The notes under the pieces are model-generated. The model did no database searches and was not told the DNA's origin. It saw nothing but the letters and a program-made list of their open reading frames with translations. Both the position numbers and the translations under genes were made by a program. This document shows, piece by piece, positions 2,191-41,000 of a DNA stretch of 64,000 nt. The stretch lies in assembly GCA_903813345.2 (NCBI GenBank), contig CAIIXF020000012.1, forward strand, positions 15,928,020-15,992,019, given 5' to 3'. The stretch comes from Owenia fusiformis. Its lineage: Eukaryota > Annelida > Polychaeta > Sabellida > Oweniidae. How positions within the stretch are numbered: the stretch's first letter is position 1; the number at the start of each line of letters is the position of its first letter.

Positions 2191-5100
2191 TCACCACTCT
2201 ATAAGTGGAAGGGGGTTGATGGGAAGATCCTCCTCCGTAAAGTGTCCATCCCATAATGCCACTGACAGTTTCGCATTACCCAGTTTACCACTTTTATTAA
2301 TTTTACTCGTTAAAACCTCATTGGCTGGCATAGTCTTTAGACTGTCAATGACCTTACTTGGTATTTTTTTTCCACTGAACACCTGTGTTACTATTTCTCC
2401 TCCAAATATGGCAGTACCGTCAAATAACGGAAAAGCCGTCCAACCAATTTGTTTGTTCCCAGATTTCACTTTCACGGCAACCACAGTAAATTGGTTGTAC
2501 TCTGGTGTTATGGTCATTAATGGTCCAGTCCATATTGGATCTTTGTTGGTTGACGATGGATCAAGACCCTGCGTTATCCAGGTGATGTCAGAACTAGTGG
2601 CGCCATCTCCTTCAAGAATCTTGGCTAAACAGGTGATAGGCTCAGAAACTGAAATATGTAGTTTACATATGGATTATACATGTTATATATGAAGTTATAT
2701 GGTGTGATTAATGAATTTAACCCAATGAAAGAGAAAAACATATCAGGCACTTGCAGGTAAATAACACTGGAGAGGAAAAGATGAAGAATAGTATTTCAAT
2801 ACAGTAGTATTAGTAAGAAAGATTGCTCTTTTCCAATCATTTTGAGGGTTCCACACATTTTTAAACATGGTGGAAAAACTAAACCTGTGCCTAGTGGGGA
2901 TGATTTGTATAAAGTTGGGCATTGATTTTCTTTATTGAATATTGCAAAGTGCATCAGAGAGGTGGTATGTCAATGAAATACTATATACTACTGTAGGTTA
3001 CTTAATGACTTAAATAGTGAGCAACACTTCTTTAAATGTTAAATGTGTACTGCCTTCTGTCATGTCTGATCGTTTAAAAATTGGTAGTATGTCTGTGAGC
3101 ACCCCTTGCTAAATATTGCACTTTTAATATCATCTTCAATTTGGAGATCGGACATTTAAAATCATGTTTTTTTTTGTTATACCTGAGAATCCAGTTCCCT
3201 TTCTGATCTCAATACATGCCCCAACTGACTGGTCATAAGTCACCATCTTCTGTATGGTGAGGTTCCCTGCTGCTTGCCCAGAGGGCAGTTGTACACTAGC
3301 ATCTAATCTTTGTTTGTACCATTCCATGAGATCACTGTCGCCTAAAATGTTGAGTTTATACATGTATGCAAAAGGGCAGTTGTACACTAGCATCCAGTCT
3401 TTGTTTGTACCATTCCATGAGATCACTGTCGCCTAAAATGTTGAGTTTATACATGTATGCAAAAGGGCAGTTGTACACTAGCATCCAGTCTTTGTTTGTA
3501 CCATTCCATGAGATCACTGTCGCCTAAAATGTTGAGGATATACATATATGCAAAAGGGCAGTTGTACACTAGCATCCAGTCTTTGTTTGTACCATTCCAT
3601 GAGATCACTGTCGCTTAAAATGTTGAGGTTATACATGTATGCAAAAGGGCAGTTGTACACTAGCATCCAGTCTTTGTTTTTACCATTCCATGAGATCACT
3701 GACGCTTAAAATGTTGAGGTTAAACATTTATGTAATGGAGATGGGAATTTATGCATTTGGACTATTTGTTCAAAATTACTTGTTTTTAATTTAGCATACA
3801 ATATGGCTTAGTGAATTCAATAAGCTTAATTAAAATCTCATCCCAATATAAGTTCAGATCCAAGTTCATAATCAACATTGCCATTTACATGGATGATTTT
3901 TTTGATTCAAACATTAACACGCACTGCATTGCGAAAATTTGAAGCAGAGAGCTGCAGGATGGTGGATAGCATCATCTCTCATTGAGTCATGATGTCATCA
4001 TTTAACATGAATTAACAAATTTTAGTAAATTTTGATCTGGTGAAAATTGTGAACAGAATTGTTAACATACTGATAGTTTCTGGATCCTCTTCAGTTTCTA
4101 TGGCCATCAGCTCCCTTGCCATGTCTTGTACAGAGACTTTGTACTCTAACTGTTTCTTAATCCCCTCCATTACAATTAACTCTGAATTGTTGGGTATAGC
4201 CTTGTTACTGTTGTAATAGCCACCGTTGTATGAAGGCTGAGGGGCTGGTGTCTGAAACATCCATATAAGGAGTCATTATCTGTGGCTAAATGTTAATGTC
4301 TGAGATGCGTTCAATCAAAAAATTATTTTTACTCAAAAAGTTTACCTTATTTTATGGTTATTTATGTTATGTTTCTTAATATGAACAGTCATTCATGGTT
4401 TGGGGGAGATATTGGTTATTCAGTTCACTAAGTTTTGATCAACAGTTTTGGATCCCTTTCAAATAATTGTATATTCAAACATAGCTAGGCAATGTGTGAC
4501 CAATTCCAGCGAATCAGAACATGCTATTTCACGTAACTGCATTCCGTTATAACCAGTAATGCATTTGTTGTGTATTTGTCAAAGTGACAAGTTAAACTCA
4601 GATTGAAATTGATGCTTTGACAACTTGACCCTTGCAAAAAGTTTCATTGAAAATATTTTCTTCTAGTGATTTCGTATCTTTTAAGTGACATTGTAGAAAA
4701 TATTTTGCAATGTGTGAAAATAATTTAAACCCTCGACTCAGTGCATTGTGTAATGACAATATTCCATTCAGGCATTGTTTGTTAAATTAACACCCGATGC
4801 TTCGCATCTCGTGCACCTTTTGAAAAGCAACACCTTCAAGGGAATGATCATTCCACATTTCACTGAGTCTAGGGCTTAAATCCTTTACCATTAAATCATG
4901 TTACCTGTGAATGAGGCAGAAGTCTGAATAGTATTGAACAGCCAGGGATCTTTGGACTATTGTCCATAGAGCGTCCATTCAGAGCAGCAACACCACCCTT
5001 GTCACTTGGCATGCCATGTCGCAGCGCCACCTGGTGACCGCCCACACGTAAATCACCCTAAAAACCAATGTGTTCATTTCAAACAGTAACATTAATTATA

Positions 5101-8100
5101 TGTTGCCTTCTTGCAAACTAACAAAAGGGTGTATTGTAAAGGTTATGAGTTATGGAAAAATATTAAAAGGAATTATGGAAAAATTATGGAAAAATATTAA
5201 ATTCCAAAGGAATTATGGAAAAATTATGGAAAAAGATTAAATTCCAAAGGAATAATCCTACTCCATCACTCAGTCAATTTCATAAAAACATAAGTGAACA
5301 CTTAAGTCACCAGCAGTAATAAATGTGTATTTTAAAGTTTTCTTAAAATTTAACACGAGAAATATCCACTTTGATTTAGTAAGAACTGTTCCTTACCTTT
5401 TTTGTGAATACTTCAACTAAGCAAGTTCCTATGACAACCAGGTCTCCATCTTCTCTATCCAAAGTGTAGACACGAAGCACTAATAATGTCCCAGCTTCCA
5501 TCTGTTTATCATCCTCATTTACCCCCATTCTGTAATTGAACCTGGGTGACCTTACCAGACTCTTTAACTGTGGGTAAGCTGAGATGTCTGGGATACCTGA
5601 TACCTCCCCTGTCCTCAGGAATCTCCCTGTGACCTGTAAAGAGAGATATAATTGTAAACCATGGTGCAAATGGACTTATGGGATACAAAGGCCTACATGT
5701 ATATCACTCTACTATACCTTACCCCTAGAAATGCATAAGATACTCTATTTGTCTAATTGAGTTGTTTAATATATTTTTGAAAGTACAGTACCTTAGTAAC
5801 ATCTAACGTCATCCGATAAACCATTAATAAGGAACTGACAAATAAAAACAAATAACACAATCATTACTAATAAGTCAAATTGGTTGCTCATGAACAGAAA
5901 ATGCACGGTATAGTAGAGTGTATATATGCATTTGGAAATTCCATGAGGTTTAAAGTGAGGATTTGTTGATATATACAATTCTTCATTTATCTCATATGCC
6001 TGAAAAATAAAGCATTAGAAAATATTAATCAAGGCAGCGATTACATGAGTTATTAGATAAGGAAATCAATATCAAACATCTTTAATTGTACATAATTTCT
6101 TTTTAATTTCTACATTTTTTGAATAAAAAGTGAGCATTTGAACAAAAGATAGATATTCCTTTACAACATCAATGACTTTTTTACCTTTATAATTGTAGCG
6201 TTGTCAGGTATGAAGTGTACATCATCTATATAGAGATCAAAGCCCTGTTCAAATGTGCTCGGGGGAGGGTTTACTTCAGCTCCTACCCTACGAGCATGAT
6301 TGACAAAGGTATCATGGACTTCTCCATCAAAGGGACTTGGAGTTCTGGAAATGAAAAAGTAAGTATGACGAAAGTGATCAAGGTCATATGCGTAAAATAG
6401 CATTGTCAAATTAATTGACTTTTTGGTGGTCCAATTTCTTAATACCCTCTACATCTCACCTCACTTTACCCTGGGCTGGTGATTGCTTGCTTGGTGTAAT
6501 AATGGCTGGTTTCACTGGTGTTTTATGGACTCGTGTTTTGTTGGCTGGTGTTTGATTGGCTACACGAGGAGAGGTAGGTTCATTGTTTCTGGGAGTTGGT
6601 GTACCTCTTTTGGGGTCATAAACCAACACACTTAGTTCACAGTCTGGACCAATAAGATCTGTAATATGACAAAAAGATATATAAAAATACAAACAAGGCA
6701 TCAACATGCAAAATATCACCACCTACCATTTGTTATAGATGCCAAAGACCAAACACTAATCGCAGAATGTCAATCACCAACCATGAAACAACATCCACAA
6801 AATAGTTGAAGACTATAACAATACCATTTATGTTGGTCACATAAAAATAAATATGGTTTTGACATTTTATGCTCCCTTGTATACATATTCTTTATTTCGT
6901 ACCACTAAGCATTCAATTGTGCTGTAAACATCAATGTTGATTTTTCATGAACAAGAATTCAGTTTTTAATTTTTGTGCTTTCAAGTCACCATCAAGTAGT
7001 AGTGGAATATTGTTAGTGGCATCATCTTTCATTACCACCATTCAATGATCAGTGATCATTATTGTCTGGAGAAAATTGTTATTAAACTTTTGTAAACAGT
7101 TTTAACAAATACAGTATCCTGATGTTGGTATTTTGTCATGTTTGGTGCGTTCCTTTTTATCAAAAATATCTGAACTTCATTCCATTCAAAACTGAACAGA
7201 ATCTCTAAAATAATACTAAACACCTCCCACATAAGGTGGACATGACCACTCAATTTCTTTGTACAATATCAGTACAATGTACCTGTGGGTTGTGTAGAGC
7301 TAGAGCCTGGCAAGTCTCCTGCTAACACACTATAAGAGTATTGCCCAAGCTGCATCTTCCAGTCAGACTCCCATCTATATAATGGCACCCTGGACCAACC
7401 TATGGCTGTTCTCAAATCTGCACCTGTTAGAAATAACAATTTTTATTTATTCATTATAATGATGTACAACAATTCAAGGATATATATCTGAGGCACCTGC
7501 ATTGACTGAAACTTGAGAGCTTATCATGCGATTATCCAACTAAAAGTGAAATCAAGAAGTATACCAGTAAAAGAAAATAACATTTTTACTTGATTCATTT
7601 ATTTACTCAGAATAATTGACACTCTATTACATTATTCAGCTGAGCTCGGACTGTATTGGGGGAAAACAAGAATTCACAGATATGTTTCTGTGACATCCTC
7701 AATAACTCAGATGCGAGTAGGTAGTTACCAGTTTCGCCACTAGGTGGCTGATTCGGGGGAAATAACATGGCAGGGTATTACAAAATTCCCTTAAACTTGA
7801 ATATTCATCAGTTTTAGTGGTTCACTTGTCATATTACCCTTATGTATCGGATAATATGTCCAATAAAAGAAATTATAACATACCTATGATGATGTATAGT
7901 GCAAAGTGTACACAAGACAGCGGGCCAATATAAGTTTTGAAAAGCCCACGCCCGCTAACTTTCTGATTGGTCAAGGCGCTGACGTCATAACAAATCAATC
8001 GAAGATAAAACTGCGCGAGCAATTTTTCTAAACTCATTTCAATCATTTTCAGACCATTTGTTTGTCAATTCTATAAGAAAACGGTACTCTCTGACCAGTC

Positions 8101-9028
8101 TACATCATCATAGGTATGTTATAAATCGTTCTCAGAGATCTATCACTGAGACCTCGGGCATATATGCCACGATAGTGACATAACCTCTAAATATTATCTG
8201 CCCAATACAAGAAAAGATATTTCACTTTTTCTGATTTTACAATATGGGGTCTATGGGGAATCTCCCCGACCTAGAAGTCAGATTTTCAAAGAAAATAAAA
8301 TGTTCAAAGTTAATAAACTCTTTTCATAGCCACATTTCTAGATGTAATTTCACATCTATATTCCAAATATGACATCAGATTGACTGAATTTTTAATGACG
8401 TAAATCAAAATTATTTTTCCTCGCATCTAGTCTATAGGTTGAGGATATGAGAATGTATAATGTAATTGCTCAACTAAATGTGAAACCAAGAAGTTTAACA
8501 CTAAAGGGAATAATAAGTGTGTGTAAAATGAAAAAAAATTATCTTACAATCAAAATATTATGGTTTTGATGGAGAATTCTCAAATCCTTATTTTCTAATT
8601 GATACTAAAAATAAAAATTACAAACATCTACTATGAAAGAAACCTCTGCCTTCTTTGACATTCTTTGTTTTGAACTATACCCTGCACATCATATGGATCA
8701 AATTCTAAGAAGTTCTTCAATATTATCTGAGTAAATTATAGAAAGTGGCATAATTTCACTCACTTTTATATAGTAGCTGAAATATGATGTATGGGTAACC
8801 TCCCATTTCAAATTCCAGATCATAGTTTGATGGGTTGATATCATTGTACACAAATCCTTCCTCTGGTGGGAATGTTATGGTGAATTCCCGACCGCCATAT
8901 TTCACAGTGTTGTCATTGTTAAGATCAGGTTCAACCTTGAAGTCTTCCCTGCGAATCTCAACACTCCCAAAATGCAACACAGCATCTAGTTGCAGATGTT
9001 TGGGGTTGACCGTTGCCATCCAGGGGTG
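2191..9028 (-). CDS. TBC-domain gene, exons 14-22 (beta-rich C-terminal half)
   Basis: Exons: 8800-9028, 7283-7423, 6460-6658, 6185-6344, 5397-5633, 4905-5057, 4071-4251, 3183-3341 and 2191-2648. Phases match at every junction, and the last exon ends in PLPLIEW followed by TGA. Residues about 619-1256 form alternating hydrophobic strands. A Pro/Thr/Lys-rich spacer (exon 16) separates two beta-rich blocks. Block two contains FDLYIDDVHFIPDNA, then VTGRFL, GDLVVIGTCLVEVF and FGGEIVTQVF, a pattern like C2 or related beta-sandwich membrane or protein-binding modules. No Asp-rich Ca-binding loops are evident. If exons 13 and 14 are not joined, this block would be a separate gene lacking its 5' end. 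Exon 21 carries the 91-bp acceptor-spanning array. Confidence 0.75.
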
Positions 9029-12000
9029 CTGGAAATATACAAGGAAATAGCATTTAATACATAAGCTCTTCTATTAAACCATAAGTTTTAGAGGGAGCTA
9101 TCTTAAAATAAAATATTGATATCTACAGGGTGGGCCAATAAAAAGTCCATATTTTTATTTTTTGTAATATCTTTGCTGGTATGTGAGAAATATAAATAAA
9201 TTATATATCATTTGAAAGATAATTTAATTTCAAACAAAGTGAAAAATCCAAAATGTCTTGAAATGAGTAAATATTCAGCTATTTGATGCAGATTTCTCCG
9301 CATTATTTAGACTAGGCCTATAATATTACCAATACCTATCAAAATGGTAAAAGAACTCAATAATATTGTAGTTGTAAATCAATTTGCTTTCATTTGATAC
9401 ATATATCAACAATTTTGACCTTCTATAATTAGACTTATATCCCCAAAGCTGCCATATATCTGTCTGGCCAGTTTTTAGCATTCTGTCTTCAGCAATCGGT
9501 AAATCATGATTTTGACCCCTGTGGTAATTGAAACATTGTTTTAAAACAAATATTTATTTATGTGAAATAAATTATATATCATTTTGTTGGAAATTGAATT
9601 GTCTTTCCAATGATATATGGTTTAAACATTTGTCTGTACTATTAAAAATGTTGTAGCAAAACAAAAATATGGACGTTTTTTTTGGCCCACCCTGTATATG
9701 CAAAATGATTATCTTTTAAATTGGTTCATGAAAATTGAAACAGAAATTCAATAAAAGGAATTAGTTTTTTTATTCCTTAATCTAAGATTGTAACAGGTAT
9801 CCTGAAGATAAAAATACTGATTTTATCATTCACTTTGGTGTTTCTTATTCTGCTACCTGATCATATTTGATATATGATGTCATATATATTATAAACATGG
9901 CATCAACATGCAAAATGTCATCACCTGCCATTTCTTACAGACACCGAACACTGATTGCCAAATGCCGGACACCAAGTGCTGAAAACCAAGCACCATGCAC
10001 AAAAAAGTTGGAGACTATAACAATATGTCATCACTTCTGATGGTCACTAAAAAAGGCCTTATTCTGAAGTAGAGATCTTAAAATTAAGTACAGAAAACAT
10101 TTGCATATCTAACGAACATTCACAATCACATGGAAATATTACAGCATATTTCAGTTTCATTTTCTCTATATCCCTCACAAATTAAATTCAGTGGGACAAA
10201 AAAACTATTTTGTTGAAGTTGAATTCGAAGTTTGATTTTATTTTGTACCGTAGTAATGATATATAAATCAGGTCAACCTGACATTTGATTAAACAAAAAA
10301 AGAAGTTCAAAATGAACAAGCTCAAAATACAAAGAAAGTCTTAAACCAGAGGAATAAAGTTCAAAACACAATACAACTTCTTTTATAATTTCCTGTCAAA
10401 TTACATCGTAAGACAAAAACTAGGCCCAAAATCAATCCACAAATCTTTGGGGAAAATTTTGATTTCTGTATCCATTAGATCATAACAACAATTATACATG
10501 ATTTCACTCACTCAGCATTAGAGTCAACAAATTCTTATATAAGTACTTCAGTTGGAATAGTTTTCGAATTGGCAAGGAGCCATTTCTTTGAACATTGAAG
10601 TAGTTTCATTTTGATTCTATATACTTTGTGTACAATTTAAACATATTGAAAGACGTGCTTTCAAAATGTCATAATGGAGCTTAGAAGTGTTCAATATAAT
10701 TTTTTATTTAGCTTTAATCTTTCGTTTCTTTTCACAATCTACTTGAAATAGGAATAATGATTAAAAATTTGAGCGCTGAACTTCAGCACCATATATTACT
10801 TCAAGCTATTGACCTAAAAATACATACAATTTTACATTACATAAAGACTATAAATTGTCTACTACACATTTTAAATCATAAATATTTTATCTCGAGTGCA
10901 GGGTAGAGTCATAGGTCACTGCAAAACATTTACTGTTTAGATGAATGTTAGATAATAAAACACTAAACAGCCTTTTGATTCTCACAAAATTGATTTCTTC
11001 AACGCCACGATGCCGATCGATAAAAACAATGAAAATAACAATATGGAGTCACCCAAGCAGGATTTATTATCGCATACAAGAGTTGATATAGATGAAAATG
11101 GCTACCAGATTCCTGAACATATACGATACACTGAAATAAAAGACACAGAAGTACAAGAGGGAGAATATTCATATGCGTATGCCAACAAAATAATCCAAAT
11201 TGATCGCATCGCGGAAAAATTGCATTGTGGAACATTCAGGGTTGTTTTGTTTGTGGCAACTGTGTTGATTTCTGCAACAATTATTGCTGTATTTGTCACA
11301 ATAATCACTCTAAGGCATCATACAGGTAAAGTGATTACTTTTTAACTTTATATATTAAGATAAAGAAAGTCTATTATTCTGTATTTATTCGCTAAACATT
11401 AAATCAATTACAAAATTATATGTTAGACTGAAATTAACATAATTTATCCAAAAGTGCATATCTCACATTCCTATTCTCCTTTTTATCAATCATGTGGTCC
11501 TGTGTCAAATTATTTGAAGGAACTTTGGAGAAAACAAACCTGCAGATCAACATCTTTAAACTTTGAAAGATGTAGTAAAATTGAGAGATTCTTAATATTT
11601 ATTTTAATGTTACCCTTTGTCTGTTTTTAATTAATTATCCATTGTACAATTAATTACAGATGAGCCGATTATGATCGATACAACAAACAATCCTATCAAC
11701 AATAAACACATAGAGGACTGTATAACAACAGCAGCCCCAAAAAACAAAGACCTTGAAACCCTAACAACAAAAAATATAATCCTGAACTGTCTGACCACGA
11801 GAACCCAGAATTTGGGTGGTGGTGATTTTCGTGAAAATGCCAACACCACCAGAACAAACTCCTTCATGTGCAAGGTGTTTCCAAAAGTTTTACCCGGCTT
11901 ATGTAGCCTTTAGGCAGGTTTTACAGTATACAAGAAAACATTATTTTATAATTATCTTAATAACTACAAAAGTTATCTTAATTACAAAAAATATTTTAAT

Positions 12001-33000: not shown

Positions 33001-36000
33001 ATTATTGAAGTATTTTTGGCAGTTGTGTTCATGTTTATAGAATCTATATCCATGTTTGTAGCATTCATTCTGAGTATTTACTGTCAGTACTTATAAGTAT
33101 GAATAGCCGCAACTCTTGAAGTCTTTCCCACCTGTTTATTCTGCTGTGTTCTGCCACATTTTGAACCTACTTGCTTCTTGTATATGTCTAGTCTCAATAA
33201 TGTATCTTAATTCCATAACTTATTATTCATACCTCAGGTGTGTCGCAGGTATGAAAAGTCAATTAATTCCAAATGCTACAGTCTATTAGGAAATATTCCA
33301 GAATAACAACCATCAGAAATAATAAAACTAAATTCCATGCCTTGATTTCCACATACTGTATATATAAAAGTCATATCAGGTCACATGTCCTTATTGCTAG
33401 ATAAGTGTCCAAATATGTTCTGGTTCAGCCAAGGTACACATTGTCTTCTGCTTATGCTTTGAAGTCATTAAAAGAACGTCAATCATACTTTTACTCTCTA
33501 CCTACCATGTGACCACATTTAAAAGGGATACAGGTTACAGTTAAGTTGCAAATGGAGTGGGTATTCTCTATCATTGTTTATAGGGTTTTTCTTGTAATAA
33601 TACAAACTCCTCGATGAATCTATACAATGTATAGTAGAACACTTGCAGGGCTTGCATTAACGGCGTCCCGTACATGTTAAGGACTCAAAAATAATTTGGA
33701 GGACGCAAAAATTGAAAATATTTCCGTTTTTTGGATGCAAATTTTTTTTTAGGTCAATACTACAATGTGTTTACAACGATACCTAACAAAAACAAATAAT
33801 TATGATCTCTCACCTTTATTTGAATCGTAAATGAGGCTCAACATGTTGAATATTTACAACTAATCATGATTCTCTCGAATTTTTTCAACTTTGTTTATTT
33901 TTAGATTTGAAACCATGACAGGCCACAGTTTTTCCTATTCAGAAACAAATATTAGGTTGTTATGAAATAAAATGTATTCATTAACGTTTACTTCCATTTT
34001 AAATTCGCGACAAGAAATCAAAAACTGAAAATATGACAAGTAAGATATACGTAAGTTAATAAAAGTAACATTGGAAAGATGTTTTACTGACCTATTGTTG
34101 TGTTGAAGCAAAGACAATCATGTGACAAAATTAACTTCAAGGTGTTTTGGTAAAAAATGCTTTTAAAATAAAGTTATACCTCAAAACAGGCTAGAAATAG
34201 GGGACACACTTTTTTTCAAAGGACACACTTTTTTTAAAAAATTGCGTCCTTTGGACTCACAAATTTTCTAACCTAATGCAAGCGCTGACTTGGAATATAT
34301 GTAAAATCTAGTATACCTTCAGAAATATGGAAATAAACAAACCTCCTCCATTTGTAACTTCTCTGTAGCCTGTATCCCTTTCATAAGTGGTCAGGTGGTA
34401 AAGTAGAGTGTTTTACACATATTGAGCATGAAACTGTGTTGTGAATGAATAAATTTGTTTCTTTAATACATCCCACATAAGTTCAATCATCTAAGTTTAG
34501 ATTCCTAAGTTCCACCGAAATGCTTTGATGAGTTATCTACATATAACTTAGCAACTACATAAAACAAAATCAAACACTGCTAGTACAATGTTATATCACT
34601 TTTCAGATAGAAAGATTGTCTTCAATATGTTGTCTCATTATTTCCATTCTGTGATACTTATTCTCTCATTGGTCAATAAGATACCATGTGACTAACAATA
34701 TGTAACAGTATTCCATCCATTATGCCAAAAGATGTATTCATCGTTGAATACCAGGCCATATTCAACGGGAAATATGTATATTGGCATCAATTTTTTTTCA
34801 TTTATTTTAAATCTTGGGACTTCACATAGAACAGATGTAAAATAAGATAACACAAAACTGAAGATTTTAACCTACATGTTTGGATTGTTAGGAAAAAAAT
34901 GATTTTGTACTTTGTGGTTTGCACAAACATCAAAAGGGCAGAAAGGAAGACTTAAAAGAGCAAAAGAGCAAGAGCAAAAATGATTTAATTAAGACAAGAT
35001 ATTCCAAAGGGATATTTATTTAGCTTGAACTGAATATAACTAACTAATTAGTGAATGAATGAAGAACATGAGACTAATGATGTGTTACAAGAATACAAAT
35101 TTACGTCATTAAAATATAATTAGCTCGTCAACAATGGGTGTTGCAACAGAGGTAAGACATGTAATTGACAGACAGGAAAATTATACCTTTGCATTCATTA
35201 GAATCACATAACAATGTAATTAAGATGTAAAGATAATGAATGTAATCATTAGTCTCAGACTAATTAAAGAAGAGCATGATGTATCTAATGTGTTGAAATA
35301 AAGAAATAGATGTTTCACGTTTCACATTTTCAGAATATTGGCCTTTGCAAGTAGCCTAATATGATTTTGAATCTTTGGATTACATTTTTTGTATAAATAC
35401 TATAAGTTATTGAATGATTTGAAGTGCGATACAGGATATATTCTGCTCGAGAAATTCTGTATTGGAACGAGACAAAGTTGAGTGCCAATACAGAATATCG
35501 AGACAGAATATATCCTGTATTGCACTTCAAATCATTTCATAACGTTTTTATCGTGTGATCCTCTGTATTGCTACTGAGAATGTTCCCTCCGTACCAATAT
35601 TTTCTGTATTGCAATGGAGATGATCAATGGAGACAATCTCAGTAGCAATACAGATTGGTACAGCACAAGAACTGACCAATCAGAAGGCTTCATTTTACAG
35701 ATCATACAATAAAATAAAATACAATGCTATGAAAGTGTACCTTTTATCTTAGCTGAGGTTGGAACTGATGCCATTGAACTCTGGGCAGAGAGAAGTGACG
35801 ATTGTCTTCGTCGAAGTGGCCATGTTTCCAGTCTTGCTATCTCACGTTTACGTTTATGCTCCTTCTCTTCCTGTATTTCATGACGCTTCTTTTTCTGAAA
35901 TTGAAACCAGGGAGTATCATTTGACATTCTCCTTTATGCACCCACTTTAGGATGCAAATAGTTTATTTCATGCAGAGGTTCTATTTGCACCAGGTGATTT

Positions 36001-37761
36001 CTCCTCTTGTTTTATAAAACTTTTGCAATTGTTTCCATGTTAAAATTCCATGAAAAAATCAGAAATGATTTCACATTGAGTCAGACTGCAATATGAGAAC
36101 TTAGAATGATTGAGATAAAATATCATTCTAAAGTTAGGCAATGGGCAGGTATTTTAAAGGCAAAGTTAGCTCTACTGTAGTAAGTCACTTTTCTCCCAAA
36201 AATTGTTACAATCTTTAAATATTTTGGGCTCTTATCATTCCCGGCCATGTAATTTCTTAAGAATCCCAGTTCAGACTTCATTCCACAAAGATTACCATCA
36301 CTTTTCCATTATTTCATAAACAGAATAAATGTTATGTTAACTGTCTTACAACTGCTGCTTGCTCTAGTTTATGTAGTTCCCTGTCCATGCCATCATGCAT
36401 TACCAAATAGGTGTGTGACAGGAACTCCTTCATTTCTTCACTCAAACCATCTCTGCAATAAACAAAAAAAAATGCTATGGTAATGTTTTAAAATAAAAAA
36501 TAAGGTACAAAAGAGTGAAATAAGAAAGGTATAGAGTAAATAGGCATTTAGCAAACACTAACAAGGAATTCACATGCAAAATGTCACCACCTGTCATTTG
36601 TTACAGTCACCAACCCGAGACCGCTGAATGCCAAACACGAACCAAAAATATCAAAATATGTCACAACATTTGGTGGTAGTGACATAAAAATTACATAAAG
36701 ATGATTAAACAAAATAGCTATTTTCAGTTATCAATGATTTTTTCTCTACCTGTTAGCCCCTGGTGGAATTCTGTAACAGCCTTGCCCCTTGCCTATCTTG
36801 ATAACCTGGTTATACAACCAAGAGTGGGCCTCTACTTCTAGTTGCCTCCTCTCTTCAACACTAGTGTGTGGAGGAGCCTATGAAAATATATATAAAATTT
36901 GAATTGATTCAGCAAAATAATTATTTTAGGACAAATACTGTGGCTGCTGACCTTGGCGAAAACAGAAAAAATGCTACAACTTAAATTTTGAAAAATGACT
37001 TTGAGAGCTTGCGCTGAAATTCCTTAGAGAAATTTGAATGAAGTAACACATAAAGAGTGTGGTTAAAAATAAGTTCATCTTTATATTCAAGCTCTATTTA
37101 AAGTGCTTCGAGAATTGCTTGCATATGACATACACACTATTTAAAGATATTTAAATTTCTTTGTGCCACCCTGTGACAGTGACTCTTTAACGAAAAAACA
37201 TCCATATAAGGACTACATACCAGAATATTAGCATTAGGCAGCTCATCAGGGAAGTACTGTTTAGCGAAGGGTTCACCTAAGGTCTGCAATATAACTTCCT
37301 TGCGCTTCTCATGCTTGAACTGATTAGAGACCTTCTTTGCCAGTGTCTTACAGATATTTTCAGAGACCTGGAATAATCAATAAATCTCGCATTGAATAAA
37401 CATTCATAAATATGCATAATACTTATGATATGTTTACATGATCCACATACAAAAGGAAACATTTTAAATGCTAGGAAGAAACTTGTATTAATTTCAAAAA
37501 AAGTTTTGAAAAATTCTGGGGAGAAATTGTGACAGTAAAGGTTTTAAGATGTTTGGGTATGTTTGATTTGAACACTCCTTGTACTATAAGGTACCCTTTA
37601 TGTACAACATACAAATTAAGATGTATTGTATACACGTTTAGTTTTTCATAAAAATTCAACATATGAATGTTCACCTGTTTCCATGGTGATTGTGGCAGCA
37701 ATGTTTCCTTGAAACATGAATCCAACCAATCAGCTGCCTTGTTTTCCTTGTTGTGGTCCAT
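2191..37761 (-). CDS. Divergent TBC-domain protein with beta-rich C-terminal half; 22 exons, 1256 aa
   Basis: I assembled this by hand. Each exon is bounded by AG/GT, and every junction phase matches, giving 3771 nt (1256 codons plus TGA at 2191-2193) without a frameshift. Residues about 240-560 look like a TBC (Rab GTPase-activating) fold: LPETLRSYMWDDVLL, then FYNHLKDI, FLRKWIGEGFVG and IIVWDQ, in TBC order. Residues about 570-1256 are beta-rich, with motifs such as FDLYIDDVHFIPDNATIIK and IGWTAFPLF, compatible with C2-like modules. The last part faintly recalls the CCDC17 C-terminus, which I hold only weakly. Large introns 5 and 13 contain other genes. Exon 13 to exon 14 crosses 10.3 kb; the phases agree (0/0), but a missed exon or two abutting genes cannot be excluded. 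I recognise no named vertebrate orthologue. An AATAAA signal (tttatt on plus, 1647-1652) is a candidate poly(A) site. Confidence 0.8.
3283..3722 (-). repeat. 91-bp tandem array spanning the acceptor of TBC-gene exon 21
   Basis: GGGCAGTTGTACACTAGCAT recurs at exactly 91-bp steps (3283, 3374, 3465, 3556, 3647), about 4.8 copies. The unit contains about 59 nt of the 5' part of the exon, its AG acceptor and about 32 nt of upstream intron. The copy nearest the exon body (to 3341) is the functional one. The others lie in the intron, and 91 is not a multiple of 3. Confidence 0.92.
5150..5255. repeat. 42-bp tandem repeat, about 2.3 copies
   Basis: GGAATTATGGAAAAATTATG, then GAAAAAKATTAAATTCCAAA, repeated between TBC-gene exons 19 and 18. 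Confidence 0.75.
6698..6850 (+). repeat. TGTCACCACC-family element, copy 2
   Basis: GCATCAACATGCAAAATATC, ACCACCTACCATTTGTTATA and GAAGACTATAACAATACC; moderately diverged. It lies in the intron upstream of TBC-gene exon 16. Confidence 0.75.
7708..8429. mobile_element. GATGCGAGTAG-ended MITE, copy 1, with a nested insertion
   Basis: The ends are CAGATGCGAGTAGG (left) and CCTCGCATCTAG (right). The interior matches copy 2 (48605-49037), including CCACATTTCTAGATGTAAT and GGTCTATGGGGAATCTCCCC. Relative to copy 2 it is interrupted at about 7872-8192 by extra sequence with its own 22-24 bp inverted repeat. Confidence 0.8.
7872..8192. mobile_element. Insertion nested in the GATGCGAGTAG MITE
   Basis: Absent from the matching copies at 27808-28242 and 48605-49037. 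It contains an inverted repeat, TTATAACATACCTATGATGA near 7875 and its complement ending GGTATGTTATAA near 8123. About 65 more bases follow that also have no counterpart in the other copies. Exact ends are uncertain. Confidence 0.6.
9126..9694. mobile_element. Tc1/mariner-type MITE with TA target duplication
   Basis: The ends CAGGGTGGGCCAATAAAAAG and, inverted, CAGGGTGGGCCAAAAAAAAC extend as an inverted repeat of about 40 bp. TA sits at both outer edges (9124-9125 and 9695-9696). The 569-bp interior is AT-rich with no frame. It lies in intron 13 of the TBC gene, about 100 bp from exon 14. Confidence 0.85.
9896..10052 (+). repeat. TGTCACCACC-family element, copy 3
   Basis: GGCATCAACATGCAAAATGT, CATCACCTGCCATTTCTTAC, then AAAGTTGGAGACTATAACAA and ATGTCATCACTTCTGATGG. 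Confidence 0.8.
11010..11913 (+). CDS. Small single-pass membrane protein, nested in an intron, two exons, 189 aa
   Basis: Exon 1 is 11010-11325 and exon 2 is 11660-11913; the GT-AG junction is phase 1 and the total is 570 nt. The ATG has A at -3. Residues 1-76 are polar and acidic with several tyrosines (ENGYQIPEHIRY, GEYSYAYANK). Residues about 77-101 form one hydrophobic helix (FRVVLFVATVLISATIIAVF). The remaining 84 residues are Thr/Asn-rich with four cysteines and an NTT sequon, which suits a short extracellular tail on a type II protein. I do not recognise the family. It lies entirely within the 10.3-kb intron 13 of the opposite-strand TBC gene. A stem-loop in the 3' flank (12099-12119) and AATAAA at 12151 suggest the transcript end. 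Moderately sure it is a real gene, because the spliced frame, membrane segment and poly(A) signal agree. Confidence 0.55.
12099..12157 (+). terminator. 3' stem-loop and poly(A) signal of the nested membrane-protein gene
   Basis: GGGGTGGAC and GTCCACCCC form a stem closed by CATTGCAAGA and followed by T-runs. AATAAA lies at 12151. Placement about 190-240 bp after the stop at 11913 suits a 3'UTR end. Confidence 0.45.
13434..13545 (-). repeat. TGTCACCACC-family element, copy 4, inverted
   Basis: TATGTCACCACCAAAAGCGG, GTCTCCAACTTTTCTG and AACAAATGACAGGTGGTGAC. The two ends are GTCACCACC and GGTGGTGAC. Confidence 0.8.
13745..14346. mobile_element. TTAA-flanked foldback element with arms of about 200 bp
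   Basis: TTAA at 13741-13744 and 14347-14350 flank inverted arms that begin AGGAATATTCCTTGCCA. The arms share CATATATATRG, TTAGCAAAACA(T/C), GATGGCAGCT and AAGTTGAGAGT(C/T)GATGACATCA-type blocks over about 200 bp. The unique centre is about 200 bp. TTAA duplication suggests piggyBac- or Kolobok-mobilised derivatives. No frame. Confidence 0.8.
14352..15479. other. Intronic stretch (TBC intron 13); nothing recognised
   Basis: AT-rich sequence with no frame longer than 70 codons that looks coding and no repeat I could pair within the window. Confidence 0.5.
15480..15625. repeat. Hairpin-type repeat related to 16325-16480
   Basis: GGTTTGGATATGGGGTTTAT, CCCTCGTGAGATATGCACGT and ACCTTCGGTCCCTATGGTCC, shared with the copy at 16325. 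Confidence 0.75.
15660..16085. repeat. Dispersed repeat, partner of an inverted copy at 56268-56760
   Basis: Shared blocks: TATTATGGAATAAAA complement, TTTCCCAGGGAAATATGAAG, repeated ATGAAAAAATCGTATTGTCC, TTTCCCGGTTATTTTATTTA, CAAACAATGTGCATTTAT, GATATAACGTTTGCATTATC and ACCCATATTCAATCC. It includes two tandem copies of an AAAAAATCGTATTGGAGCGT unit. Confidence 0.85.
16320..16490. repeat. Foldback hairpin element
   Basis: Left arm GATATGGGGTTCATCC pairs with GGATAAACCCCATATC, separated by a loop with CTTCGGTCCCTACGGTCC. A related, diverged copy lies at 24225-24480 (TTTTGGATATAGGGTATATC). Confidence 0.75.
16585..16905. repeat. A-rich degenerate low-complexity tract
   Basis: Roughly 13-bp degenerate units of (T)GAAAAAAAATT and (G)TGAAAAAAATT over 320 bp, strongly purine-skewed on the plus strand, directly followed by GTCGCTACGCTCGCTCG. 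Non-coding. Confidence 0.8.
17055..17170. repeat. Palindrome of alternating ATCGAATATCAC units
   Basis: AAACCATCGAATATCACTTT and CTATCGAATATCACGTC are mirrored by AAGTGATATTCGATGGTTT and AAGTGATATTGGATGGTTT, giving two nested stems. Confidence 0.8.
17185..17248. mobile_element. Fragment of the GATGCGAGTAG MITE family
   Basis: TTGAATATTTGATGACGTAA, ATCAAGATAATTTC and TACTCGCATCTTGTC match the right end of the fuller copies. No left end is seen. Confidence 0.6.
17250..19322. other. Rest of TBC intron 13; no gene
   Basis: Only the TTTCAA-rich repeat, two G-runs (about 19129 and 19263) and short frames without coding character (17175-17435 and 17689-17880). Confidence 0.5.
17985..18245. repeat. 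TTTCAA-rich degenerate short repeat
   Basis: Runs of TTTCAATYRTTTCAAKC-type decamers (GTTTCAATTGTTTCAAGC) with loss of register. Non-coding. Confidence 0.7.
19323..24844 (-). CDS. TBC-domain gene, exons 6-13 (TBC domain)
   Basis: Exons: 24631-24844, 23648-23771, 22386-22551, 21884-22062, 21422-21538, 20639-20800, 19842-19960 and 19323-19476. They encode residues about 207-618. Exon 6 holds the TBC entry motif (LPETLRSYMW). Exons 7-8 hold the helices where active TBC proteins carry the Arg finger (IxxDxxR) and Gln finger (YxQ). Here my alignment gives IENAVIE and EPYLIYW, so both catalytic residues look replaced. Exons 9-11 carry the C-terminal TBC helices (DSEFYNHLKDI, FLRKWIGEGFVG, AAIIVWDQCIMQKW). 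Exons 6, 11 and 12 each have tandem copies of their acceptor and 5' part lying upstream in the preceding intron. Exon 13 is Ser/Arg-rich and then turns into a beta segment (NISLKLIVPP). Confidence 0.82.
19615..19712. repeat. Palindromic GTACTGTACAGTACC tract
   Basis: ACAGTACTGTACGGTACCAT, GGTACTGTACAGTACCATAA and ATGGTACTGTAGACTAAAAT form overlapping inverted repeats upstream of exon 13 of the TBC gene. Confidence 0.8.
19893..20198 (-). repeat. 102-bp tandem array spanning the acceptor of TBC-gene exon 12
   Basis: Three copies stepped by 102 bp (GTTGTAAATGTACCCAAGC at 19894, 19996 and 20098). Each has about 67 nt of exon 12 (reverse strand ATATTCCTGGAAGGGCC), the acceptor TTGCAG and about 35 nt of intron. 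Using an outer acceptor would read into an in-frame TAA within the unit, so only the innermost acceptor gives a coding product. Confidence 0.92.
20210..20305 (+). repeat. TGTCACCACC-family element, copy 5, short
   Basis: GCAAAATGTCACCCCCTGCC, ATTTGTTACAGATGCC and AAAAGTTGGAGACTATAATA. Adjacent to the 102-bp array. Confidence 0.75.
20732..21131 (-). repeat. 109-bp tandem array spanning the acceptor of TBC-gene exon 11
   Basis: CAATTATAGCTGCCTG recurs at 20761, 20870, 20979 and 21088 (109-bp steps). Each copy holds about 69 nt of the exon start, with the acceptor TATGTTATAG and about 40 nt of intron. Only the copy ending at 20800 continues into the full exon. Confidence 0.92.
22655..22910. repeat. 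Two diverged direct copies of about 125 bp
   Basis: TTAAATTACAAAATTTACACC, CATTTGGTGG and ATGGATCCTCATCAAATT recur about 125 bp later as TTAAATTACAAAACTGGC, CATTCGTTGG and ATGGATCCTCATGAAATT. Confidence 0.65.
23805..23905. repeat. Relative of the GCCCGTAGCCA MITE, inverted fragment
   Basis: CTGGCCAAAAATTCTTTAAA, CAGTTTTCACTATTTTGAGC and ATTTTCAAGCAGTTTT mirror the core. It lies 30 bp upstream of TBC-gene exon 7. Confidence 0.6.
24225..24480. repeat. Diverged foldback hairpin copy in the TBC-gene intron
   Basis: AAGGGTTATGTACTGGGAGG and TTTTGGATATAGGGTATATC correspond to the complement of the 16.4-kb element's right arm. ATATACAATATATCCTGCC and other AT-rich palindromes follow. Confidence 0.6.
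24790..27005 (-). repeat. 117-bp tandem array, about 19 copies, spanning the acceptor of TBC-gene exon 6
   Basis: Units such as TGGTCCCATGTTCATTTATA recur at 117-bp steps from 24821 (24938, 25055 and on). Each contains 55 nt of the exon 6 start, the acceptor (TTTTATAG on minus) and about 62 nt of intron. Copies differ by a few substitutions, with variants such as CATCGTGCT, CATCATGCT and CATTGCGCT. Blocks of shared variants imply several rounds of amplification. On the minus strand each outer copy meets an in-frame TAG after its exon part. On the plus strand 117 = 39 codons, which creates an accidental long open frame. Confidence 0.95.
27075..27205 (+). repeat. TGTCACCACC-family element, copy 6
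   Basis: CACAATGTCATCATCTGCCA, TTTGTTACAGAGGCC and AAAAAAGTTGGGAATAC. It lies immediately beyond the 117-bp array. Confidence 0.75.
27525..27655 (+). repeat. TGTCACCACC-family element, copy 7
   Basis: GCAAAATGTCACAACCTGCC, ATTTGTTACAGACACCGAAC, then AAAGTTCGAGACTCTAATAA and GGTGGTGACATAAT. Confidence 0.8.
27808..28242. mobile_element. GATGCGAGTAG-family MITE, copy 3, inverted
   Basis: In reverse orientation it matches copies 1 and 2. It runs from ACGCATAGTAGAAATAATC with TTTACGTCATTAAATATTC through to AAACTGGTAACTACCTACTG and a diverged end (GATCTGAGTAACTA). It lies within intron 5 of the TBC gene. Confidence 0.75.
28500..28646. repeat. Foldback hairpin element, family with 53248-53386
   Basis: GTGAAATATTGGACC pairs with GGTCCGATACTTCAC around GGGCCC. 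The outer arms are TAATAACGTCAT and ATGATGATATT. It is shared with the copy at 53.3 kb (TAATAATACTAATAACRTCA at both). Confidence 0.8.
29426..30502 (-). CDS. Orphan class A GPCR, copy A, intronless, 358 aa
   Basis: A seven-helix receptor. TM1 has PNGVVLL (residues 76-82). TM2 has CDFLVGLLALP with Asp105 (position 2.50). Cys135 at the start of TM3 pairs with Cys212 in loop 2. Trp187 is in TM4, LTCLPF is the TM6 CWxP equivalent, and NPWVY (326-330) closes TM7. The DRY motif at the end of TM3 is replaced by LRF (159-161). The 52-residue N-terminus is built from repeated MNATN/MNITA units and holds seven N-glycosylation sequons. The frame is uninterrupted and the start is the first ATG. It sits in intron 5 of the TBC gene on the same strand, so it needs its own promoter. 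It was tandemly duplicated with the gene at 31998-33068. Ligand unknown; an amine, peptide or lipid receptor cannot be told apart here. Confidence 0.93.
   Translation of the reverse strand: MNATNMDIDALNMNITAKNTTTMNMNATNISATEMNATNINNTDITEIFHPQNMPIGLKMCHMIIEVILAIITVIPNGVVLLSYVKSTALQAERYILLMSLCICDFLVGLLALPVSTVYHFIPINYDYINERYLCTARTFIVVVLAGVSIFHLAVISLLRFVTIQWPMQHARFLTSFTLKVIAVIMWIHMTFMCFFMFLDKFNTWTPNTGSCLIYKIVVPGYYKILQWHVILFMIVCLISSIMIGYIAWKQSKKIAQVVGLSDANKEKAKMEKKYTKTLLLIVGLFFLTCLPFTIFSSFRFDIDSVWLQSFGLFISIFGLCNSAMNPWVYALRHQTFRHAMLHALKCPGTTTNDSNLN
31231..31650 (+). mobile_element. 5'-truncated non-LTR retrotransposon 3' end
   Basis: The plus-strand frame ending at 31498 carries the C-terminal cysteine-histidine motif of non-LTR reverse-transcriptase proteins: CLMCNKKTGSECHFLLEC. 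A 3'UTR follows, ending AATAAAGCTC and then an (AAT)n tail at about 31632-31646. Comparison with duplicate A (ATTTAATATTCATTCTC) shows this segment is absent there, so it inserted after the GPCR duplication, with a short target change. It is a dead fragment lacking the polymerase domain. The clade is not assignable; CR1/L2-like is plausible from the tail. Confidence 0.75.
31998..33068 (-). CDS. Orphan class A GPCR, copy B, intronless, 356 aa
   Basis: Paralogue of the receptor at 29426-30502, nearly identical through the seven helices. It shares the ALQAERYILLMSL and NPWVYALRHQTFRHAML segments and the LRF substitution for DRY. Differences concentrate in the N-terminus (six sequons), TM4/loop 2 and the C-terminal tail (SGTTTSVTSAS). 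Both frames are intact, which suggests that both copies are under constraint or that the duplication is young. Its flanks carry two insertions absent from copy A: a non-LTR fragment downstream and a CAGGGCTTGC-ended element upstream. A conserved AATAAA (tttatt on plus, 31152-31157) matches one in copy A (28877-28882). Confidence 0.93.
   Translation of the reverse strand: MNATNMDIDSINMNTTAKNTSIMNMNVANVNVTTDMNTTNTNNTEIFHPHNMPAGLKMCHLIIEVILAIITVIPNGVVLLSYVKSTALQAERYILLMSLSFCDFLVGLLALPVSTVYHFIPINYDYINERYLCTARTFIVVVLLGVSIFHLAVISLLRFITIQWPMQHARFLTSFTLKVIAVIMWMYAIFLNHFMFFDKFNTWMPDTGSCLIYYIAVPGYFKIIQWHVILFMIVCLISSIMIGYIAWKQSKKIAQVIVLSDANKEKLKTEKKYTKTLLLIVGLFLITFLPFSIFSSFRFDIDSVWLQSFGLFISMFGFCNSAMNPWVYALRHQTFRHAMLRTLKCSGTTTSVTSAS
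33646..34287. mobile_element. CAGGGCTTGC-ended non-autonomous DNA transposon with 5-bp TSD
   Basis: The ends are CAGGGCTTGCATTA (left) and TAATGCAAGCGCTG (right), an imperfect 14-bp terminal inverted repeat. The flanks are ACTTG (33641-33645) and ACTTG (34288-34292). Duplicate A of the GPCR segment has the empty site ACACTTGGAATATATG at 31089-31104, which confirms both ends and the 5-bp target duplication. The 642-bp interior shows no coding frame. Near the right end is a repeated GGACACACTTTTTTT. End sequence and interior suggest a hAT-like derivative. Confidence 0.8.
35405..35540. repeat. Palindrome with arms of about 35 bp
   Basis: GATTTGAAGTGCGATACAGG with ATATATTCTG pairs with CAGAATATATCC and TGTATTGCACTTCAAATC. 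The inner arms (TTCTGTATTGG and CCAATACAGAA) extend the stem. Confidence 0.85.
35562..35668. repeat. Second palindrome beside 35405-35540
   Basis: CTGTATTGCTACTGAGA pairs with TCTCAGTAGCAATACAG, and ACCAAT with ATTGGT at the inner and outer edges. It shares the AATACAG word with its neighbour. It lies about 70 bp from exon 5 of the TBC gene. Confidence 0.8.
35741..37761 (-). CDS. TBC-domain gene, exons 1-5 (N-terminal 206 residues)
   Basis: Exons: 37675-37761 (ATG at 37761, protein begins MDHNKENKAADWLDSCF), 37221-37367, 36750-36877, 36350-36452 and 35741-35894. Junction phases are 0, 0, 2, 0, and exon 5 ends in phase 1. The segment is helical and charged. Exon 5 is strongly basic and then serine-rich (KKKRHEIQEEKEHKRKR, then RRRQSSLLSAQSS), typical of a linker or phosphorylated tail. 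The start codon lies 316 bp downstream of the SPRING1 stop on the same strand. The 5'UTR probably lies in that gap, but no core promoter is obvious. A dispersed repeat of the TGTCACCACC family sits in the intron between exons 3 and 4. Confidence 0.8.
36505..36690 (+). repeat. TGTCACCACC-family element, copy 8, long form
   Basis: Core CATGCAAAATGTCACCACCT, GTCATTTGTTACAG and TTTGGTGGTAGTGACATAAA. The preceding AGAGTGAAATAAGAAAGG and AGTAAATAGGCATTTAGC blocks also occur beside other copies (54740-54790 inverted) and alone at 55600-55760, so the full element is longer than the core. Confidence 0.75.
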
Positions 37762-38076: not shown

Positions 38077-41000
38077 TTATTGTATGGCAACTGGCTGCAG
38101 GTCTGGGGGTTTATCGCCATAGCAATATTTTGCTTTAGGATCTCTGTAGGAATTCTCATGCTGAACGCTCTGAAACAAAAACAAAGTTGGAACATTAATT
38201 AGTAATAATAAATTACTGTAAAATCGGCACTAAATCGGCACCATTCTTGAATGAGCGGCCATTTTGAAAATCGGCTTTTGAGCAGAACTTCTACCCCCAT
38301 AGGGTATATGTTTACAAAATATGAACAAAATCGGGCCAATGGTATTTGAGTTATTGCCTGGACGGACAGACAGAAGTATGTACGGACGGACGGACAGACG
38401 GATGGAGGCGTTCCCTATATCCCTCTGAACTCCATTCGATAGGATAATAAAATAGCAATTATGTGATAATCATAATATATGCTCATAAATTACACACACA
38501 TGGTAATTTACTTAAGTATCACTCCTAAATTATATTCACAATTGAATTATTCAACTTAAAAAGTGACAGTCACAAGTTAGATTTACTTTCAATCATTATA
38601 CCTAAAGGAATTACCATTATATGGATATGGCAGAAATGAACAATAATCAAATATTCTGATCTGATCAAGTCGTCCATTGATGAAAATGAGGCTTACTTCT
38701 GTACATAAAACAACACTTAAAGCATATTTTCTATTCATCATCACGATAACTCATAAATCATTTCTAAAAAATGCAGAACAAAATATGCACCTGTGATGAT
38801 GTTCTACATTTGGCGAGGCAGAGTTCAAAGTGGTCCGTCACTGAGGCAAACAGGTTGTGGAATGTGTCGGCTGTTTTACTAAGGATTTTACGTAATAGTG
38901 GTTGCTGAAAATAAATAACAAAAATTTAAAATCTAAAGAAGTACAATGGTGCACAAACATGTACATTTATTTAAAACATTCAGTTGAAATTAGTTTTACT
39001 CTTAAATCCAGGTGTGGTGTGTATTTGTATTTAAGGATCTTAGGTAATAATAGCTGCTGAAGATAAACGACAAAAATATTGATAAATGAATAAGTATTTT
39101 ACTACAGAAGTACAATAGTGCTCATACATTACATGTACAAAACATTTAGTTGACTTTGGTATACTTTCGATTTCATAAACTTTTAAATTCAGGAGTGTTG
39201 TATTTGTTTGAATTATGACCCCTCTGGGTTGGCAGCCATACTTTGACCTACTTGAACAGGGACCCATAATATTAGAAAGAAAACTGATAAAATATTATGC
39301 ATTTCTCAATTTTGTAGACATAAAGCAGAATATTATTGACAAACCTTATCTGGCTGCAAGCAGCAAGAGATGCAATGTTCATATATACTACAACACCCAG
39401 TGTTTGTACAAGAGTCACATGTGTAGCGTTTTGTGGATGGAATTGTGGTACGACAACAACCTTCTGAGTCTACCTCTTCTCTATTGCATACATAACCTGA
39501 AAAGATAATTCATTAAAATAAATTTAAACTAACGGCAGAAATGCTTTAACATGATGATAGGGCTATACGTGCCTTTTGACTAATCAGAATGACGAAACCA
39601 TATGAAGTATTGATTTAATACATGGGAAATATAATCATTAGGAATTCTCATGTACTATGTACAGCGAATAATGACAACATAGTAAGACCATGCATGGTCT
39701 TGGTCTAATGCATGGGTCTAATGCATGGTTTAAATCATATGTTTGTACATGTGATACATGTCTTGCCCGTAGCCAACTTTTACCAGGAGGGGGAGCTTTT
39801 TTCCAGGGGGGGAGCTTTTTCATAATTTTGGCTAAAAATCATGCAAAAAATTCTCAGAATGGTGAAAAACTGCATGATTTTGAAAGAATTTCTGGCCAGG
39901 GGGGGAGCATCTGCTCCCCCAGCTCCCCCAGCTCCCCCTCTGGCTACGGGCCTGCATGTAGTTGATTATTTTCATTTTTCATTAAAGCTTCTTAGGTTGT
40001 GATTCATATGGGATATTTAATAAAATAATATACCATATACACATATACATGTACATATATACAGTATATGCAGAATTGATGATAAAACATACCTCGCTCA
40101 TCGGCTATAAGCTGTTTCCCTTGTACTGAGTTTCTGCAACTTTTACTACTGTTAGATTGTGTAAAATGTACTGCTTCCCAATTGATTGCATCGGGCTGCA
40201 CCAGTAACCTCTTGCGGTCGATGTAATCTTCTTGCGATACGAGCTTCTCCGACTGTAACAAATCATATAAAATATATTATTTTTAGTCATCAAAATAATT
40301 TTTACTGCCTTCTACTGTAGATTTCTGAAAGTTTTACACTAACAACAGAATATTTAACTCAGTAATATACAGTGGAAAATTAGTAAGTAATACAAACATC
40401 AACTAAAGTTACAGTCTTTTTAAACGAATCACCATACACCATAAATAAATACCATAAATATTTCAAAGAACTATCCAGAGAGCTCGAAATAATATATTGT
40501 TTTCCTGGTATAAACAACAGCAAAAGGACCCACATTCCTCAAAATCAAGAACCACAATAAGATAAGATTGTAACAAACACTTCAACATCTTGTTCCCTTG
40601 ACTTGTTTACTTGCTGCATCACCCATGACAAAGATGTGTTATCTATTCCATGTTTTCCCTGAAAGATGAATGAGCAATCTGATTTCCTGGCTTTTATCTA
40701 TGACTTAAAGTGTTTAATACTTGTTTCTTTACTTTATTTCTTGTTCCTTGCACTATTTCTCATTCTATTAAGCTTTTACAACACAATATTAAAATGACAT
40801 TTTCCCAATGGGATGAATCTAGAATTTTTGAAGCCTGGAGATCTAGAGATATGTAGCTCTTATAAAAAGGATTAAGGGGGCAGGTCAAAGTATTCTTCTT
40901 TTTCAACTGAAATTAACTATATTTGATATTCAATTGTCATATATGAAATTAAAAGGAGGTAAAGTCATTCAATGTTTTAGGGAAATTAAAGCCATTCAAT

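Follow-up and report, generated by a model that had tools for sequence, protein, structure and literature searches.

The window analysed here, a 64,000-nucleotide stretch of the annelid Owenia fusiformis (contig CAIIXF020000012.1, or C12; C12:15928020-15992019), carries two adjacent minus-strand genes: a 22-exon gene that weakly resembles the RabGAP-TBC family, hereafter the host gene, and SPRING1. Tandem copies of a short unit run across the acceptors of five of their exons, and in every case the unit consists of the end of an intron, its AG and the start of the exon. Tandem Repeats Finder (TRF) was run on the window, and the features below are given in window positions.

2191..37761, minus strand, complete host gene (22 exons) including the presumed ATG, the 1267 codons after it and the stop; similarity to RabGAP-TBC weak
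24790..27005, minus strand, 117-bp array, 18.9 copies (TRF); last unit enters exon 6 with 55 nt exonic and about 62 nt intronic
24631..24844, minus strand, exon 6, one open frame across modelled junctions
20727..21129, minus strand, 109-bp array, 3.7 copies (TRF); last unit enters exon 11 with 74 nt exonic and 35 nt intronic
20639..20800, minus strand, exon 11, open frame across modelled junctions
19892..20199, minus strand, 102-bp array, 3.0 copies (TRF); last unit enters exon 12 with 69 nt exonic and 33 nt intronic
19842..19960, minus strand, exon 12, open frame across modelled junctions
3282..3732, minus strand, 91-bp array, 5.0 copies (TRF); last unit enters exon 21 with 60 nt exonic and 31 nt intronic
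3183..3341, minus strand, exon 21, open frame across modelled junctions
38880..39153, minus strand, diverged two-copy duplication over the SPRING1 exon 4 acceptor, 152 bp from AG to AG
38791..38904, minus strand, SPRING1 exon 4, within the Pfam PF10218 match of the joined exons

An earlier note on this DNA had described the arrays at exons 6, 11, 12 and 21 with periods of 117, 109, 102 and 91 bp, and all four were found by TRF. The diverged two-copy version that it placed at SPRING1 exon 4, with a period of 152 bp, was recovered by self-BLAST, the upstream copy being 70% identical over 125 bp (E 3e-9). The layout of the unit was as described; the exonic span, given there as 27-69 nt, is 55, 74, 69 and 60 nt in the four host-gene arrays. 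By self-BLAST the exon-6 array extends to 27029. Extra copies do lie only upstream of each exon, and this is expected from geometry: if the exon is to stay intact, an array over its acceptor can reach only in the upstream direction, just as one over a donor can reach only downstream. When the host gene and SPRING1 (27 exons) were scored by the method used for the genome sample described below, copies were found at 5 of 25 acceptors and at none of 25 donors, so that the reported lack of donor arrays holds within these two genes.

The four units are unrelated in sequence. In a DNA search of the genome, which covered the four host-gene arrays (the SPRING1 copy was left out) and skips very common words, exon 6 and its unit matched at one place only and the exon-11, exon-12 and exon-21 units matched solely their own loci, in agreement with the view that no transposon is involved. 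Two arrays retain what may be traces of their origin. The sequence ATGAGTGA is found at the two ends of the exon-6 array, the outer one and the one inside the exon. This would fit a duplication between short direct repeats, although the outer occurrence may instead be what is left of one more copy. In the exon-11 array the outermost copy carries a different intron tail, while the tail of the inner units resembles a part of exon 11 lying farther downstream at 18 of 24 positions; 300 shuffles reached 17 or fewer, and 1 of 300 random windows of the region reached 18. The resemblance hints that a longer piece of the exon was duplicated first and shortened later. The motif CTAATG in the same tail could serve as a branch point.

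The host gene was rebuilt by hand, with boundaries picked by splice scores. Its 22 exons join in a single frame that encodes 1267 amino acids after the presumed initiator ATG and holds one stop, at its end; all junctions, including those of exons 6, 11, 12 and 21, therefore agree in phase. At these four exons the frame continues with the innermost acceptor, that nearest the exon body. The name "TBC gene" used for it earlier is weakly supported: the RabGAP-TBC profile scores 20.6 bits against the predicted protein, under the curated cut-off of 25.2, and no Pfam family matches the whole protein at E<=0.001. The identity of SPRING1 is confirmed by its five predicted exons, which join without a stop and match Pfam PF10218 (SPRING1) with an E of 2.6e-48. 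A separate 45-bp repeat (1.9 copies, 83% matches) at 37744-37830 spans the presumed start codon of the host gene. Intron 5 contains two similar uninterrupted minus-strand frames of about 360 codons each, at 29441-30511 and 32001-33077, which by eye resemble seven-transmembrane receptors.

Each upstream copy presents the splicing machinery with a decoy acceptor. An AG is present at the aligned position in 25 of 27 decoys (18/18 at exon 6, 3/3 at exon 11, 2/2 at exon 12 and 2/4 at exon 21), and the two exon-21 decoys that lack it have an AG one base further on. Together with the true site, the exon-6 array thus holds 19 intact AGs out of 19. By a simple acceptor score the 18 exon-6 decoys range from 2.0 to 3.2, compared with 2.0 for the true site; the corresponding values are 1.8-2.3 and 2.2 at exon 11 and 0.3 and 0.2 at exon 12. 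As decoys score about as well as the true acceptors, sequence strength does not choose the true site. Splicing to a decoy would add 91-117 nt for every unit. In each of the 11 decoys tested (the two or three nearest to each exon) the extended frame reaches a stop 21-80 codons past the junction. The earlier note had reported in-frame stops after the outer acceptors of the 117- and 102-bp arrays; here they follow the nearest decoys of all four exons.

The interior of the exon-6 array is homogenised. Decoys d5-d12, except d10, are nearly identical to one another, and copies towards both ends differ from them: the exon copy, d1, d4, d10, d17 and d18 have another set of variants in common at matching exonic positions. 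Diversity per site among d1-d17 (d18, with its altered outer end, was excluded) is 0.040 for exonic and 0.031 for intronic sequence; since it is not lower in the exonic part, the decoys show no coding constraint. Nor is there any sign of in-frame selection on unit length, because only 6 of 21 acceptor-array periods are multiples of 3. These periods comprise the five of the window and those of 16 of the 20 acceptor arrays in the genome sample, four with unclear periods being excluded.

The earlier note had suggested that a genome-wide scan of acceptors, donors and introns would decide whether acceptors are favoured; it was carried out on a sample. The genome comprises 498,259,871 bases in 525 contigs, of which C1 to C12 measure 32-62 Mb each. 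Exons were located by searches with four families (myosin head, dynein AAA_6, kinesin and SNF2), and the match lists hold the best candidates, for example the best 65 of 210 scored for myosin and 122 of 218 for kinesin. Of the 92 myosin matches, 12 that form a cluster of repeated exon copies at C9:37986009-37994334 were removed ahead of the count, as were 17 of 144 kinesin and 4 of 73 SNF2 matches that are extra copies inside two arrays; none of the 88 dynein matches was removed. For kinesin and SNF2, 100 of 131 planned regions were included (161 of 196 matches), those with the most exons per base being taken first. The resulting sample contains 329 exon matches at 154 loci in 275,113 bases. 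Three further family searches (15, 99 and 60 matches) were inspected by eye only and stand outside the counts. The myosin cluster is a curiosity of its own: twelve matches to one piece of the myosin head (approximately positions 18-84) lie within 8 kb, and they are possibly mutually exclusive exons.

Tandem copies were found by self-BLAST, and exon boundaries were refined by splice signals and frame; nine of the 329 matched cores exceed 400 bp and may contain an intron, and the core L016 at 4018 itself duplicates the beginning of an exon. An acceptor was counted if it fell within the final copy of a tandem pair, a donor if it fell within the first, and intron controls were positions shifted 100-340 bp into introns. 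One dinucleotide-preserving shuffle per locus yielded no tandem pairs, compared with 149 real pairs in 55 of the 154 loci, so that chance does not explain the detections. Because the permutation test treats positions as independent, a bootstrap over 97 gene clusters is the safer guide.

With refined boundaries, 20 acceptors and 8 donors of the 329 exon matches have boundary-straddling copies. The acceptor rate of 6.1% (3.5-9.5%) is 3.4 times its control (1.8-6.4), and the donor rate of 2.4% (0.9-4.2%) is 1.03 times its control (0.4-2.0), the matching intron rates being 2.0% for acceptor-type and 2.2% for donor-type positions. A sign test of acceptors against donors gives P 0.036 for 20 versus 8 and P 0.043 for 18 versus 7, and in 1.1% of bootstrap samples the acceptor rate fails to exceed the donor rate. 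The shifted controls are uneven, with 3.3% on the acceptor side (upstream) and 1.4% on the donor side (downstream), and against the latter alone donors would be enriched about 1.8-fold, which makes the statement that donors lie at background less firm than the acceptor excess. By core boundaries there are 20 acceptors and 9 donors, 29 boundary cases in 27 of the 154 loci, spread over 10 of the 12 large contigs. Inspection by eye left doubt about donors L033 and L080 in the core list and L016 at 4018 in the refined list, leaving seven convincing donors, and judged acceptors L087 and L113 weak; L131 and L145, which are 30 kb apart and paralogue-like, share one common array type.

Two further measurements bear on how this excess is to be read. 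Among pairs at least 85% identical there are 17 acceptors where 2.9 are expected and 7 donors where 2.9 are expected (P 0.03); enrichment at both boundaries suggests that a constrained exon copy helps an array to stay homogeneous. About 7% of intron positions in the sample lie within tandem copies. Array coverage is 7-9% in introns upstream of acceptors and 6.5% in the last 25 bases before the AG, so no local peak of arrays at the AG is present in the sampled loci; it drops to 3% after 75 bases of exon, and around donors it is 2-3%, climbing to 5-6% from 50 bases downstream. Arrays therefore run on through acceptors and thin out at donors. The acceptor enrichment is seen when arrays ending at a given point are compared and is absent when plain coverage is compared.

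The sampled arrays resemble those of the window. Their periods are mostly about 30-166 bp, with one of 259, and decoy sites are often letter-for-letter copies of the true sites, at donors and acceptors alike; donor arrays of the same make include L065, L102 and L148. Three acceptor arrays of the sample showed up as repeated partial matches in the family searches themselves: a kinesin exon start at C2:23266359-23269174 is repeated 18 times at 159 bp, in an array whose ends lie in L100 and L108 and which is as long as the exon-6 array, an SNF2 array at C2:4915297-4916006 has five copies, and a dynein array at C12:24489641-24489983 has two. Host introns at array exons were not found to be longer: the distance to the preceding match has a median of 935 for array exons (11 of 20 measurable) and 423.5 for 212 array-free exons (P 0.15), and once the array is subtracted the median is 631 (P 0.88).

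These rates alter two statements made from the window alone. Exclusivity of acceptors is refuted by the donor cases in the sample (8/329, seven of them convincing), and what is left of the proposed targeting is a roughly threefold enrichment over introns and an excess over donors. Four arrays in one gene had been called extreme; at 6.1% per acceptor, 1.3 are expected among 21 acceptors, with P(>=4) = 0.04, and P = 0.02 for 5 of 25 in the host gene and SPRING1 combined. As the window was chosen for its arrays, it is best regarded as ordinary for this genome, at the upper end.

The closest known counterparts are the mirage minisatellites of amphioxus, to which the earlier note had compared the layout. 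These are reported from Adh3, the globins BflGb6 and BflGb9, TnC and PGBD5 (PMC3087553, PMC3902484). Their tandem units of 10-160 bp lie over an intron/exon boundary of either kind, and many contain AG or GT; copies evolve in concert inside the array with the ends excluded, and splicing is reported to be undisturbed (PMC3087553). Array length is unstable and differs between haplotypes or somatically, and transcripts have been reported (PMC3087553, PMC3902484). The Owenia units likewise contain the intron/exon boundary, measure 91-152 bp in the window, and keep the splice signal in 25 of 27 decoys and in many sampled ones. Both boundaries are affected in the genome sample and acceptors only in the window, and the interior is homogenised with the ends excluded in the exon-6 array, the one array for which this was seen. 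Every listed feature that could be compared agrees, and the window arrays most likely belong to the mirage kind. They differ from the amphioxus reports in that they are counted here (6.1% of acceptors, 2.4% of donors, with an acceptor excess).

The host organism also differs from amphioxus in carrying haemoglobin-linker genes of annelid type. Haemoglobin linkers are typical of annelids. Three exon matches within 15 kb on contig C6 score above the curated cut-off for Eryth_link_C, the haemoglobin-linker C-terminal family; one of these exons matches the solved "Hemoglobin linker 1" chain (E 0.0025), and the linker exon adjoins an open reading frame that by eye resembles a low-density lipoprotein (LDL)-receptor class A repeat. 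These matches are moderate evidence for an annelid host as opposed to a cephalochordate.

Comparison with two other systems delimits the Owenia arrays. In the AGGT model of intron gain by tandem genomic duplication, a short intragenic duplication supplies duplicate splice signals (PMC3443670). The arrays share such duplicated signals within a gene; unlike that model, no new intron is needed, as an existing intron is lengthened and the exon left unchanged. The host frame requires the modelled exons only and none inside the arrays, so no new intron was found; the exon-11 unit, with its exon-like intron tail, comes nearest to the model. Ordinary intronic minisatellites were found by the same method in introns, and boundary arrays differ from them in that one copy is fixed by coding and splicing constraint and in being most enriched among the more identical pairs. 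The window also contains a complex array at 53766-54408 with periods of 94, 114 and 208 bp (TRF), flanked by open stretches of a gene on the plus strand that, by eye, appears to be leucine-rich.

Taken together, these observations lead us to propose, with a probability of about 0.68, that the arrays are mirage-type minisatellites that arise by ordinary tandem duplication and persist as splicing ignores the outer copies. A duplication whose two breakpoints fell in the intron and a few dozen bases into the adjoining exon would spare the exon and add a copy of intron end, AG and exon start upstream. The spliceosome would stay with the acceptor closest to the donor that follows, as expected from exon definition and as the reading frame suggests, and the spare copy would be a silent, presumably neutral decoy and hence tolerated. 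Interior copies would then expand and become homogenised by unequal exchange or slippage, exchange being the putative means of growth, while coding selection would hold the exon copy in place and the outermost copy would retain old variants. No sign of a function for the arrays is visible.

Several points weigh against this proposal. Tolerance with otherwise neutral placement fails to predict 20 acceptors where 6.6 are expected, or the excess over donors; it does not account for the threefold acceptor excess over introns, with donors at about the intron level. If the first-transcribed acceptor were favoured, acceptor arrays would be less tolerated, the opposite of what is observed, and the probable use of the innermost acceptor is read from the reading frame only. 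Finally, a coding-constrained copy may keep boundary arrays recognisable for longer than intron arrays, inflating both rates.

The excess would be explained more directly if acceptors were a mutational hotspot, where the T-rich tract, the branch point, R-loops or the nucleosome edge of the exon at the intron's 3' end start duplications. We regard this as possible, and hold it tentatively. It draws on the contrast between 20 of 329 acceptors and about 2% of introns with donors near background, on the 1.1% of bootstrap samples, on the larger excess at 85% identity or above (17 versus 2.9), and on simple selection arguments, which would predict no acceptor excess. Against it, coverage just before the AG (6.5%) is not above that farther upstream (7-9%), so that no local peak is seen, and no common break motif was established. 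Donors too are enriched among the more identical pairs, which suggests that arrays at boundaries are better preserved, and the donor control depends on the side chosen, giving donors about 1.8-fold enrichment against the lower one; the entire contrast consists of 20 versus 8 events in 97 gene clusters. Acceptors may be targeted by mutation, or arrays there may survive or stay recognisable better. A stronger version, somewhat more doubtful still, would make the 3' splice site the birthplace of minisatellites, with thousands of exons ending unstable arrays and exon starts swapping sequence with their decoys; if it held, new splice sites would keep arising at exon starts, along with changes to the coding sequence by conversion.

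The remaining alternatives give the copies a role or an origin of another kind. It is unlikely that the decoys are functional, tuning splicing by competition, by delay, or by an alternative exon start that leads to transcript decay. In favour, all 19 exon-6 AGs are intact and the decoys score near the true site. Yet homogenisation of an array can keep its AGs intact without selection, two of the four decoys at exon 21 lack an AG at the aligned position and have one a base further on, the exonic part of the exon-6 decoys is no less diverse than the intronic part, periods are not biased to multiples of 3 (6/21), and units differ between genes. That the arrays are exon duplications serving as extra or alternative coding exons is very improbable: the copies do hold exon sequence and an acceptor, and the exon-6 and exon-12 periods are multiples of 3, but the units take in just the beginning of the exon and lack a donor. 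Coding use of the copies was rejected on the periods and on the read-through stops in 11 of 11 tested decoys over four exons. We give equally little credence to an assembly or prediction artefact. Long, near-identical arrays are prone to misassembly and exact copy numbers may be wrong; the copies, however, differ by individual substitutions, and 29 cases in 27 of 154 loci on 10 of 12 large contigs contrast with no pairs in the shuffles.

A transposon or satellite family inserting at acceptors is no more credible. A short repeat family adjoins the outer ends of the exon-6 and exon-12 arrays, yet it shares a stretch with only 4 of the 29 sampled boundary cases, and these stretches end a few hundred bases from the exon. 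It touches the array in none of the 29, and a link between the family and boundary arrays was rejected. The four units occur only at their own loci, so that a transposon origin is rejected at the sensitivity of the DNA search, which by skipping very common words cannot exclude every relative. The family itself has inverted ATGTCACCACC-like ends and looks by eye like a miniature inverted-repeat transposable element; it occurs at 32 places in the 275-kb sample and at 11 in the window:

1362-1587
6694-6847
9896-10054
13432-13543
20206-20305
27066-27197
27527-27635
36562-36690
48111-48249
54667-54733
60573-60710

A 28-bp minisatellite at 1467-1582 (TRF) looks as if it were built from the end of this family.

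In the literature consulted, mirages in this sense came only from amphioxus (PMC3087553, PMC3902484), and a case outside amphioxus may still be published. The present rates suggest that the host gene is one example of a genome-wide habit and not an oddity. To our knowledge, boundary minisatellites had been described in just a few amphioxus genes. If sites are independent, a ten-intron gene would, at the rates sampled, be more likely than not to carry one or more arrays. Work on such genomes, in annotation, in the mapping of short reads and in the prediction of splicing, must then allow for decoys identical to real sites. The acceptor excess raises the question of whether duplication, or its survival, depends on the splice site. 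The arrays themselves are natural experiments in how the spliceosome chooses among up to 19 similar acceptors.

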